The notes under the pieces: model-generated | Database searches by the model: none | What the model was told of the DNA's origin: nothing | The model's input: only the letters and a program-made list of their open reading frames with translations | Assembly: GCF_024494595.1 (NCBI RefSeq) | Contig: NZ_JANHDI010000014.1 | Location: 1-64,000 of the forward strand | Direction of reading: 5' to 3' | DNA length: 64,000 nucleotides | Source: Halobellus rarus | GTDB lineage: Archaea; Halobacteriota; Halobacteria; Halobacteriales; Haloferacaceae | Part shown: positions 25,166 through 44,993 of the stretch, in pieces | Numbering within the stretch: the first letter of the stretch is position 1 | Layout: every line of letters begins with the position of its first letter | Position numbers and translations under genes: made by a program

Positions 25166-28100
25166 ATGAGTGAGTCGCAGGGAGAAAACTCGCCCTCCGT
25201 CGTAGACCTTCTCCGTGATCACTACCCGAAAGCCGTCCTCTCAGCGGTCATCGCTGTGATGCTCTGGATTCGACTCCAGACGTACGACAGCTTCCTTCGG
25301 GACGGAGAGGTGTACTTTGCGGGCAACGACGCGTGGTACCATCTCCGACAGGTGAATTATACAGTTCGGAACTGGCCCTCGACGATGCCATTCGACCCGT
25401 GGACTGGGTTCCCATACGGGAACCTAGCGGGTCAGTTTGGGACGCTCTACGATCAACTGATCGCGACAGTCGCGCTGACTGTTGGCCTCGGCGATCCCTC
25501 CCAAGAGCTGATCGCCAAGACGCTACTGGTCGCACCCCCGGTGTTCGGCGCGTTGGTTGCGCTCCCGACCTATGCGGTCGGCAAGCGCCTCGGCGGAAAG
25601 CTGGGTGGTGTCTTCGCGGCGATCATCCTAATGCTGCTGCCTGGGGTGTTCCTCCGGCGGGGACTCGTCGGCTTCGCCGACCACAACGTCGCCGAGCCGC
25701 TGTTTATGATGACGGCTGTCTTCACGACGATGATCGCGCTCACCGTCGCTGAACGTGACCGCCCCGTCTGGGAACTCGTCGTCGACAGAGACCTCGACGG
25801 GCTCCGCGATTCCCTGAAGTGGTCCGCGCTCGCTGGCGTCGCGATTGCGATGTATATGTGGGTGTGGCCGCCGGGCATCCTGCTCGTCGGGATCGCCGGC
25901 GTCTACTTCCTGATCCAGATGGTCGCCTCGTTCATCCAGGGCGACTCCCCCGAGCACGTCGCCTTCGTAGCGGGCATCTCAATGATCGTCGCTGGGATCC
26001 TGATGGTCGTCAGAATCAACGAGCCTGGGTTCGGCGTCACAGGGTTCACGCTCCTACAGGTGATTCTCCCGGTGGCTGTCGGCGTCGGTGCCATCTTCCT
26101 CGCTGGCCTCGCGCGACTGTGGGAGTCCAACGAGATCGACGACCGCGGCTACCCAGTCGCGGTCTTCGGGATCGTCGCCGTTTCGCTCGGTATCTTCTCG
26201 CTCGTGCTCCCGAACGTGTTCGGAAGCATCCTCTCGAACCTCCTCAATACGGTTGGGTTCAGCGCCACGGCTGGAACGCGAACTATCGGCGAGGCGCAAC
26301 CGTTCCTCGATCCGGGTACCCTCCAGCGACGGGGGCTGACCGCGAGCGGTCGAATCATCAGCGAGTACGGGTTCACGTTCTTCTCCGGGCTCGCCGCGGC
26401 GATCTGGCTCGCCGCGAAGCCGCTCGTCAAGAGCGGCGACACGCGGGAACTCGGCTACGTCGCGGGCGCGCTCGGCGTCATCGCCGTCATCTTCCTTGTG
26501 CCCGCCATCCCCGACGGAATCAGCGGCGCGCTCGGGATCGAGTCCTCACTCGTCAGCCTAGTGATCGTCACCGCGCTCATCGTCGGGGCGATTCTACAAG
26601 CCGACTACGACGCGGAGAAGCTTTTTGTCCTCGTCTGGATCGCCTTCATCACCTCCGCCGCGTTCACGCAGGTGCGGTTCAACTACTACCTCGCGCCCGG
26701 CGTCGCGGTGATGAACGCCTATCTCGTCGGCCAAGTCGTTAACTCGAAGTACCTCGGACTCCCCGAGATCGACGGCTTCAACGACATCGATGGTTACCAG
26801 GTGCTCGCGGTCGTTGCCACGATACTCCTGATTCTCGGACCAGTGTTGGCGGTTCCGATCACCGTTGGAAACGCCCAAACTCAGACCCAGACTGCGACGG
26901 CGTGGCAGTCCGCACAGAACAATGACCCTGGAGCGGTCACTGTCTGGGACGAGTCGTTCGAGTGGATGCAAGGGAACACCCCCGAAGAGGGGAACCTCGG
27001 CGGTGCGGGGAACGAAGGTGAAATGGAGTACTACGGCACCTACGAGTACACCGACGACTTCGACTACCCGGACGGGGCCTACGGCGTGATGTCGTGGTGG
27101 GACTACGGCCACTGGATCACCGTCAACGGCGAGCGGATCCCGAACGCGAACCCGTTCCAGCAAAACGCGGACGTAGCCGCGAACTTCCTGCTCGCACCGA
27201 ACGAGACCCAGTCCGAAGAGGTCCTTACCTCACAGAGCGACGAGGGCGATCAGACCCGCTACGTAATGGTCAACTGGGAGATGGCGACGCCCGGGTCCGA
27301 GTTCGGCGCGCCGACGGTGTTCTACGACGCCGAGGATAACGTCTCGCGCGACGACTTCCTTCGGACGCTCTACCGCTTCGACGACGAGAACGAGGGGCAG
27401 TTCGTCGGGACCGCCTCGGTCCGAACTGACCGCTTCTACGACAGCACGATGACGCGGCTGTACTACTACCACGGGAGCGCCCAGGAGCCCTCGCCCGTCG
27501 TCGTCGACTGGGAGGACCGCCGGGTCCAGGCCGCCGGTGGCGACGAGGTGACCGTCCCCTCGAACCCGCAGGGCGAGCGGACGTTCGTGCGGACCTTCGA
27601 CAATATGAGCGCCGCCGAGTCGTACGTCGAAGAAGACGGGAGTGCACAGATCGGCGGCGTCGGCGAGTTCCCGACCGAGCGCGTCGAGGCGTTAGAACAC
27701 TACCGACTCGCACACGCGACCGAGAGTTCAGCGGCGAACTCCATCCTTCGTACGACGGGACGCAACTCGCAGATTCTGGGGGTCAGCCCGCAGGCGGCTG
27801 TTCCGAGCAACTCCGCGTGGGTGAAGACCTTCGAGCGCGTCCCCGGTGCGACGGTCGAGGGCAGCGGCGCGCCCGCGAACGCGACCGTGACCGCCCAGAC
27901 CGAGCTTCGGATGCCGAACGCGAACTCGACGTTCACCTACACCCAGCGCGCGCAGACCGACGAGAACGGGGAGTTCGAGATGACGCTGCCGTACGCGACG
28001 ACCGGCTACGACGAGTACGGGCCGGAGAACGGTTACACGAACGTCAGCGTGCGCGCGACGGGGCCGTACACGGTCTCGACGCCCGCGTCGCTCAACGACA

Positions 28101-43882: not shown

Positions 43883-44473
43883 TCAGCAACCGCAGCCGCA
43901 ATCCGATTCATCGTCGCCGGAGCTTTCGAAAAAGCCCCGAACGTTCGACGAAAGCTGATACGCCTGGCTCTCGCCCGGGTCATCAAACTGCATTCCGTTC
44001 GGCGCAAGGGCGCGAACTAATTTCTCGACGAGTAGTCCGACAGGCGCTGTCGAGTGTTCCTCACCGCGGTATCGCCAGCGGCGGCAATCGACAGCACCCT
44101 CACACGCACAGAGGTCACCGCACGATTCGCAGGTGTTTTCGAGATACTCGGGTTGAATGTCCCGGCCACCGATACGAATCGTCGGCGACACGGCGAGTTG
44201 CGCCGCTTCCGCGGCCGCCAGCGTCGAGACGTGGACGTCTCTGACAGTGATACCGACGTCCAGCGCATCGAGGATTGGTCCGACACGTCGGAGTGCCGTC
44301 TCGAGCGCTGCTTCGGTCCCCATGCATCGGTCGCAGGATTCGTTGTTCAGATAGAGGAAATCGACGGTGACCGTCCGCCGGGCGTACTCTTCGGGCGTTG
44401 GCCGGACAATCGAGACAGCCTCGCTGTCTGTGGGATCGTTCATCGCATCTCGAAGTGCGTCCTGACGAGGCAT
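43883..44473 (-). CDS. DUF2703-type thioredoxin-fold protein with cysteine-rich tail
   Basis: A 196-residue protein. The central domain has a thioredoxin-like layout with CDRC near residue 48-51 (FLYLNNESCDRCMGTE), the strand VRDVHVSTLAAAEAA, a cis-Pro-like VSPTIRIGGRDI, and a second cysteine cluster CESCGDLCACEG. This is the DUF2703 pattern. The C-terminus ends in DCGCGC, a likely metal-binding tail. The divergent regulator also ends in a cysteine-rich tail. A role in metal or metalloid (mercury or arsenic) handling is plausible but inferred. Confidence 0.75.
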   Translation of the reverse strand: MPRQDALRDAMNDPTDSEAVSIVRPTPEEYARRTVTVDFLYLNNESCDRCMGTEAALETALRRVGPILDALDVGITVRDVHVSTLAAAEAAQLAVSPTIRIGGRDIQPEYLENTCESCGDLCACEGAVDCRRWRYRGEEHSTAPVGLLVEKLVRALAPNGMQFDDPGESQAYQLSSNVRGFFESSGDDESDCGCGC

Positions 44474-44495
44474 ATATTAGTCAGTGATAAAACAT

Positions 44496-44512
44496 ATACG
44501 AGGTTATCGTAT
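44496..44512. promoter_or_regulatory. Dyad 1 between DUF2703 and HxlR genes
   Basis: ATACGA-GGTTA-TCGTAT, a perfect inverted repeat 23-39 nt upstream of the DUF2703 gene start, so over its expected TATA region. Confidence 0.6.
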
Positions 44513-44538
44513 CGAAACCCCCCGGGGTGCAAGAAGGG

Positions 44539-44553
44539 ATACGACGAACGTAT
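44539..44553. promoter_or_regulatory. Dyad 2 between DUF2703 and HxlR genes
   Basis: ATACG-ACGAA-CGTAT, a perfect inverted repeat with the same half-site as dyad 1, 30-44 nt upstream of the HxlR gene start. Each divergent gene thus has one copy over its promoter. Confidence 0.6.
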
Positions 44554-44582
44554 ATGACGCTACGGCCGCTAACGTCGATGTA

Positions 44583-44993
44583 ATGGGCGAAAGTGAGCAG
44601 TGGCAAGCGAAATGGCACGGGTTGCAGGATGTCCTCGGGCCCAAATGGACCCTGCACATCCTCCGACTCCTCTCGGACGATCCCTACGGGTTCAACGCCA
44701 TCCAGCGCGAACTCGATGGCCTGACCGCACCGATGTTGTCTCGACGGCTCAAAGAGCTTCGGTGCCACGGGCTCGTCGAGCGGACGGTCGCGGACACGAC
44801 CCCGCCCGAAACGACGTACTCACTGACCGAACAGGGAACTGAAATCGCCACTCGGCTTCGAGAGTTGGAACCGCTCTTCGAGTTGCACGATCAAGAAGCG
44901 GAAAACGCAACCATCGACTGTTCAACTCCCTCCCAAGAGTGTCGAGGCGAAGCACTCGAAAACGGCTGCGTGACGGTCACTGATCGATGTTGA
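44583..44993 (+). CDS. HxlR-type regulator with cysteine-rich tail
   Basis: A 136-residue winged-helix regulator of the HxlR family (LGPKWTLHILRLLSDDPYGF, QRELDGLTAPMLSRRLKEL, and a wing with TTYSLTEQG). The last 30 residues contain four cysteines (DCS, EC, GC and a C-terminal Cys), which may bind a metal ion or sense thiol stress. It is divergent from the DUF2703 gene and shares two matching dyads with it, so it probably regulates both. The ATG at 44583 starts the conserved part. Confidence 0.85.
   Translation: MGESEQWQAKWHGLQDVLGPKWTLHILRLLSDDPYGFNAIQRELDGLTAPMLSRRLKELRCHGLVERTVADTTPPETTYSLTEQGTEIATRLRELEPLFELHDQEAENATIDCSTPSQECRGEALENGCVTVTDRC

Follow-up and report, generated by a model that had tools for sequence, protein, structure and literature searches.

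A divergent DUF2703–HxlR gene pair in Halobellus rarus and a candidate family of cysteine-tailed haloarchaeal regulators

HxlR regulators with cysteine-rich C-terminal tails may form an undescribed family of metal(loid) switches in haloarchaea. One of them is encoded in the 64,000-nt stretch of Halobellus rarus DNA analysed here (the window), where its gene and a DUF2703 gene are divergent neighbours (Pfam scan). It appears moderately probable that such regulators are activators, each controlling one divergent thiol-rich effector via a GGTTTC-N6-GAAACC dyad 64–67 nt from the effector start, with the effector swapped and the regulator, the site and the spacing kept.

For the pair itself, the favoured reading is a two-gene unit in which the HxlR protein responds to As(III) or another soft metal(loid), or to oxidation, and switches on the gene of the thiol-rich DUF2703 protein. 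We place its likelihood just above even. The original prediction concerned this pair and overlooked that, judged by sequence, it belongs as one branch to a wider set of Cys-tailed HxlRs, most others of which face tiny Cys-rich open reading frames (ORFs).

The gene pair, its cysteines and its history

The DUF2703 gene occupies 43883–44443 on the minus strand and encodes 186 residues from a corrected start. Its product, compared in alignments of 8 and of 5 homologues, matches PF10865 with 76 bits (cut-off 23.6). The HxlR winged-helix regulator gene lies at 44583–44993 on the plus strand and encodes 136 residues that match PF01638 with 66.7 bits (cut-off 20.8); this protein was studied by alignment, tree and tail comparison. 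The adjoining genes are carA, named from its sequence with no scan, on one side and a DUF7115 gene on the other, so no ars gene is next to the pair.

Both products end in Cys-rich tails, as had been noticed originally. Such tails occur in relatives as well, so the pair withstands one of the refuting conditions set originally, their absence there. The HxlR protein ends in CSTPSQECRGEALENGCVTVTDRC, with a tail spacing of C113-x6-C120-x8-C129-x6-C136, and has C61 within the DNA-binding domain. All these five cysteines are invariant in six of six aligned sequences, and the tail count is 4–5 in 12 of the 13 loci with the pair and 3 in genome G335.

The DUF2703 protein has a CxxC motif (C37/C40), a second cluster (C105–C120) and a CGCGC tail, ending in ...SDCGCGC. 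The CxxC motif is invariant in 8 of 8 aligned homologues. In the same alignment, the second cluster is missing in G174 and the tail is variable, being CGCGC in the window and CC or CES in the most distant rows. Elsewhere, 10 of 28 DUF2703 proteins, namely those that a script recognised in 31 loci (29 from a phylum search and two plasmids), have two or more cysteines among their last 12 residues. The DUF2703 tail is recurrent, not unique.

In the Pfam scan, the DUF2703 protein has no match to the ArsD domain at E 0.1. A fold model from five close sequences has an element order that fits beta-alpha-beta-alpha-beta-beta-alpha but is poor, with a pLDDT of 48. Its Foldseek comparison with known structures gave no match at E 0.001, and several thioredoxin-fold chains are among the weak matches.

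The HxlR model is fair in the domain and disordered in the tail, where the pLDDT is about 30–40. By sequence, YodB (4.5e-11), YybR, YdzF and others come closest among solved structures, QsrR and HxlR rank lower, and these matches end by residue 102, short of the Cys tail. The protein scores below the cut-offs of the ArsR/SmtB models PF01022 (14.2 bits, cut-off 22) and NF033788 (17.9 bits, cut-off 55).

The divergent pairing is conserved. It was found in 12 of 392 genomes of the order, and Halorientalis persicus provides a 13th case. Across the order, the DUF2703 family alignment matches in 15 genomes, and HxlR at E 1e-15 gives 95 matches in 91 genomes. The 12 strongest HxlR matches (at least 158 bits) are exactly the 12 that stand head-to-head with DUF2703, and the arrangement is kept down to 46% identity of both proteins.

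Other DUF2703 loci are arranged differently. The Halohasta salina gene (G275, L013) has its 5′ end cut with a transposase-like ORF adjoining, and no HxlR match is found on its contig. G174 has an ArsP–DUF2703–ArsR arrangement without HxlR. The G201 match, a short fragment, seems to be the pNG700 gene of Haloarcula marismortui. G400 (L102), from another family of the phylum, holds a more distant divergent pair, with an HxlR lacking the Cys tail and a DUF2703 protein ending in CC.

In the HxlR tree, a weakly supported fork (83/85) unites the 13 haloarchaeal pair members and one non-pair row (G359), and the G400 HxlR is apart from the others on a very long branch. This tree does not establish a single origin of the pair HxlRs.

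The pair looks like a recent arrival between carA and the DUF7115 gene, judged by its lower GC3 and by congeners in which these two genes are separated by a short gap or by another gene. Among the 12 congeners searched, they are 77–174 bp apart in four (alignment gaps) with no gene between them, and in two (G355 and G596, L176 and L177) a potassium-channel NAD-binding-like gene, identified by reading with no family scan, lies between them. In the remaining six, they are apart or carA alone matched. The pair's GC3 is 0.67–0.68 and that of the flanks 0.85–0.90. In congener G216, the pair is at another place, beside an ArsE–ArsP–ArsR module.

These signs of insertion speak for the two genes being chance neighbours, brought together by horizontal transfer with no regulatory link. 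Such a chance pairing is very improbable, as the divergent order recurs in 13 loci, in mostly different surroundings where these were read, together with a conserved dyad. The search for viral carriers of the pair gave one weak DUF2703 fragment and no HxlR, and that for a defence link just weak helix-turn-helix matches such as Csa3.

As a side observation, the gap between carA and the DUF7115 gene may be an insertion-tolerant spot.

Promoters, dyads and the sense of control

Judged from relatives and the TATA position, the DUF2703 gene most likely starts at 44443 and not at 44473. The start equivalent to 44443 is present in all 13 pair loci and the upstream in-frame ATG in only four (the window, G168, G367 and G216), so the former is preferred. 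The ATG at 44473 is in frame but is part of the TATA element, as TATATG, and nine of the 13 loci are without it; it is the less likely start.

The DUF2703 TATA-like element, TATATA on the minus strand at 44472–44477, has its centre about 31 nt upstream of the ATG. Many of the 13 loci have a similar element at this position, and in G208 and G291 it is not clear. On the plus strand, the HxlR gene has a BRE/TATA-like element, CGAACGTATAT, at 44545–44555, with its TATA about 30 nt from the start. The HxlR promoter element GAACGTATAT is found in 8 of the 13 loci.

The original prediction placed an ATACG/CGTAT dyad over each promoter. Both dyads are in the sequence, dyad 1 as ATACG-N7-CGTAT at 44496–44512 and dyad 2 as ATACG-N5-CGTAT at 44539–44553. 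Their placement over the promoters is not supported: dyad 1 misses the DUF2703 TATA element, and CGAACGTATAT itself includes the right arm of dyad 2.

As operators, both dyads were rejected for being at chance level and poorly conserved. The intergenic DNA contains three perfect dyads with 5-bp arms against 1.28 expected, and 17% of the resampled copies contain at least three. Among the 13 pair loci, the window alone has exact copies with spacers of 5 or 7 bases, and G193 has one with a 9-base spacer. With one mismatch allowed, dyad 2 occurs in none of the other 12 loci. Dyad 1 so relaxed (AAACG...CGTAT) is at the same position in four other loci, which counts in its favor, and it overlaps the site preferred here.

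The better conserved site is this overlapping dyad, GGTTATCGTATCGAAACC, of the form GGTT-N10-AACC at 44502–44519, which we propose as the HxlR operator. An 18-bp element of the type GGTTNN-N6-NNAACC shows this better conservation across the 13 intergenic regions. From outside to inside, its nine position pairs are complementary in 6, 9, 13, 11, 6, 7, 3, 5 and 13 of the 13 loci.

Against GGTTTC/GAAACC, the dyads of the pair loci score 7–12 of 12 letters, with at least 10 in eight of the 13. Those of G184, G362 and G216 (9 of 12) are borderline, reached by 2–7% of resampled sequences, and those of G239 (7 of 12) and H. persicus (8 of 12) are not above resampled sequence.

The pattern GGTTNNCGTANNGAAACC has one zero-mismatch match in the entire H. 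rarus genome. The search for further operator copies gave near matches, among them one in the window at 25407 that falls within a coding frame, and none was seen directly ahead of the ArsR–ACR3 genes. Across 243 genomes, exact GGTTTC-N6-GAAACC was counted 67 times, in 52 of them, and the pattern read backwards twice. By our reading, eight of the 67 copies have one of the order-wide HxlR matches beside them, so the motif is not diagnostic by itself.

From the dyad centre to the DUF2703 start, there are 67 nt in 12 of the 13 pair loci and 65 nt in G193. The distance from this centre to the HxlR start is 61–84 nt in all 13 and 67–75 nt in ten. This HxlR-side spacing is also fairly even, so the view that the spacing is fixed to the target alone would rest mainly on the sister loci described below together with G208, G291 and G335.

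HxlR-family regulators have dimer-type dyad sites and target genes nearby. The family includes repressors, and Bacillus HxlR is an activator. For the window protein, we infer DNA binding, the ligand, activation over repression and the biochemical role of DUF2703.

An HxlR dimer would bind the GGTT-N10-AACC dyad between the two promoters. Its C-terminal Cys tail, with C61, would bind a thiol-reactive ion, As(III) or a different soft metal(loid) being the likeliest, or become oxidised. The ligand-bound protein, sitting about 36 nt upstream of the DUF2703 TATA element, would then activate that gene, and HxlR probably tunes its own gene as well. DUF2703 may buffer or chaperone the ion with its thiols, or may be the thiol reductant that arsenate reductase uses.

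Alternatively, HxlR could repress both genes from the shared dyad and be released by the ligand in the ArsR manner. The dyad is central between the two promoters, 67 and 72 nt from the DUF2703 and HxlR starts, and repressors known in the family would give this reading a precedent. We consider it unlikely, as the window dyad is clear of both core promoters and the spacing is tighter to the target than to HxlR. Activation is preferred since the site is upstream and clear of the target core promoter, with the tightest spacing to the target.

Arsenic neighbours and the nature of the signal

Arsenic genes neighbour the pair in other genomes. In 4 of 12 paired loci, those of H. persicus, N. mahii (G184), G216 and G239, an ArsP_1 permease, an ArsE-type thioredoxin and ArsR are no more than about 5 kb away. 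The search covered 11 paired loci with about 9 kb of flanks and H. persicus with 4–6 kb, the families being scanned on the N. mahii genes, and the ars seeds had no match in the other eight loci. Beside the pair, there is an ACR3–ArsC remnant in N. mahii and a double ArsC in G239.

On the N. mahii contig of L011, a single open frame (L045:2-745) comprises part of ACR3 and the C-terminal part of ArsC. It is apparently what a deletion left of an acr3–arsC cluster.

In the phylum search, DUF2703 matched in 41 of 246 genomes. ACR3, ArsP or ArsC matches (E 1e-3), some of them weak, lie within about 1.5 kb in 18 of the 29 DUF2703 loci fetched. Five plasmid records had a DUF2703 match: in two, from Peptoclostridium and Bacillaceae JMAK1, it is inside an annotated ars cluster, and the other three are Haloarcula fragments. 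In Rhodococcus aetherivorans BCP1, As(V) is reported to induce a DUF2703–arsO unit, by less than tenfold (PMC6514093).

A link of DUF2703 to arsenic genes is thus seen in bacteria, in other archaea of the phylum and in some haloarchaea. The ArsP-like permeases of the relatives score below the cut-offs of the SaoE model and of the Cu/Zn exporter model, and the open-licence literature on SaoE gave nothing related among the matches listed. In the window genome, ArsP_1 was not found, and the single ACR3 detected lies at a distance of 28 kb, next to an ArsR-like gene without such a dyad before it.

The idea of a self-contained metal or metalloid response pair survives as a conserved divergent unit of a Cys-rich regulator and its putative target, located beside ars genes in some relatives, and is not supported in its assignment of the operators. 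The pair was also taken originally to be undescribed in haloarchaea. This agrees with the open-licence literature on HxlR, DUF2703 and haloarchaeal metallothionein, where neither the HxlR–DUF2703 pair nor a Cys-tailed HxlR family is described among the matches listed.

The HxlR family is known mainly for redox and aldehyde sensing. The window protein might accordingly be a thiol or quinone redox switch, a sensor of disulfide, quinone or aldehyde stress like YodB, QsrR or HypR, with DUF2703 as a thioredoxin that repairs thiols and the arsenic neighbours secondary. That YodB, YybR and YdzF are among its best solved-structure matches speaks for this, and so does the placement of DUF2703 in the thioredoxin-like clan (PMC3091736).

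We regard a redox switch as quite unlikely. YodB and QsrR have a reactive N-terminal cysteine for sensing, which is absent here, as no cysteine precedes C61. The cysteines are instead in the C-terminal tail (3–6 in each of 39 tailed loci), and most other tailed HxlRs face genes for Cys-rich, metallothionein-like peptides. The preferred reading remains the sensing of a soft metal(loid), or oxidation, at this tail.

The window regulator thus shares the HxlR winged-helix domain with YodB, QsrR, HypR and Bacillus HxlR, but differs from them in lacking the N-terminal cysteine, having the C-terminal Cys tail and facing a gene for a Cys-rich protein. Its partner has the same Pfam domain as the ars-cluster DUF2703 proteins of R. 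aetherivorans BCP1, Peptoclostridium and the Bacillaceae JMAK1 plasmid. The latter are beside ArsR-type genes, whereas the window DUF2703 is in a stand-alone unit beside a Cys-tailed HxlR.

A CxxC motif is reported also for the Rhodococcus protein (PMC6514093). The ArsD metallochaperone and ArsE thioredoxin-like proteins share the arsenic gene context, and their relation to DUF2703 is by clan and context only. Membership in the thioredoxin-like clan has been proposed for both DUF2703 and ArsD (PMC3091736).

Sister loci with tiny cysteine-rich ORFs

The survey beyond the pair comprised 62 loci: all 46 with HxlR matches of at least 92 bits, of which 12 are pairs and 34 are not, H. persicus, and, as controls, 15 of the 49 weaker matches. 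Cys-tailed HxlRs were defined by at least three tail cysteines, and 39 loci are so classed, with 3–6 each. The 49 non-pair loci comprise 26 tailed and 23 tail-less ones.

A tiny Cys-rich ORF, defined as divergent, 20–90 aa long, with at least six cysteines (12% or more) and a start within 320 nt, faces the HxlR gene in 19 of the 26 tailed non-pair loci versus none of the 23 tail-less ones. Fisher's test gives p 3.5e-8, to be taken with caution since the loci are related, and the rate in resampled DNA is 0.2%. Examples are MSDDCCVTDTDCCIDTDQIVVCCCGSGCC and MAENHCCDVDAESLADLFETTVEIPVGIVLAGGCCCCRCC, and the ORFs read have about 29–67 residues with 8–17 cysteines.

The same type of dyad recurs in these loci. 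At 10–12 of 12 letters, it is upstream of 15 of the 26 non-pair Cys-tailed HxlRs, in some as perfect GGTTTC-N6-GAAACC. With the 8 of 13 pairs, 23 of the 39 tailed loci have a dyad of at least 10 letters, as do 3 of the 23 tail-less HxlRs (L166, L175 and L184). Both dyad and tiny ORF are present in 15 sister loci (L064–L071, L073, L074, L160, L161, L164, L167 and L168).

In 13 of these 15, a possible tiny-ORF start is 64–67 nt from the dyad centre, and the exceptions are L064 (105) and L068 (86). Both ATG and GTG were allowed as starts, and with more than one to choose from in several loci, the spacing is not wholly constrained. In the sister loci, the dyad and the aligned HxlR start are between 45 and 135 nt apart. 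L072, L165 and L171 have the tiny ORF with a dyad of just 7–8 of 12 letters, and L159 with one of 9.

The codon evidence for the tiny ORFs is mixed. The differences at codon positions 1, 2 and 3 are coding-like at 2, 1 and 10 between L069 and L073 and at 11, 4 and 21 between L069 and L159. They are 7, 12 and 19 between L067 and L071, and 9, 3 and 5 between L065 and L067, the latter not coding-like. A cation-efflux-type transporter lies beside the tiny ORF in L064, L066, L068 and L074 (Pfam on L064 only).

Seven Cys-tailed HxlRs (L057–L063) have neither the GGTTTC-type dyad nor a tiny ORF. Their neighbours are an Rdx/SelW-like protein in all seven (ending in SPGCC where read), a YlbF-like protein in five and arsM in three, by family scans of one member each; the arsM neighbours are a further point for the metal(loid) link. 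By eye, L057 and L058 show a different dyad before HxlR, GATAC-N6-GTATC or GACAC-N6-GTGTC.

The sister tiny ORFs are candidate archaeal metallothionein-like proteins. They resemble the haloarchaeal C(P)XCG zinc-finger microproteins (PMC11241148) in being small and Cys-rich. Unlike those, the sister ORFs read lie opposite a Cys-tailed HxlR, and their cysteines form CC, CCC or CCCC clusters instead of paired C(P)XCG motifs.

In summary, the H. rarus pair gives a candidate operator, a start site and a putative target for a DUF that recurs in arsenic loci, and it points to tiny Cys-rich ORFs of haloarchaea that may have a built-in handle on their regulation. If true, the proposal made here would extend the HxlR family by a Cys-tailed branch that senses metals, and would provide candidate archaeal metallothionein-like proteins.
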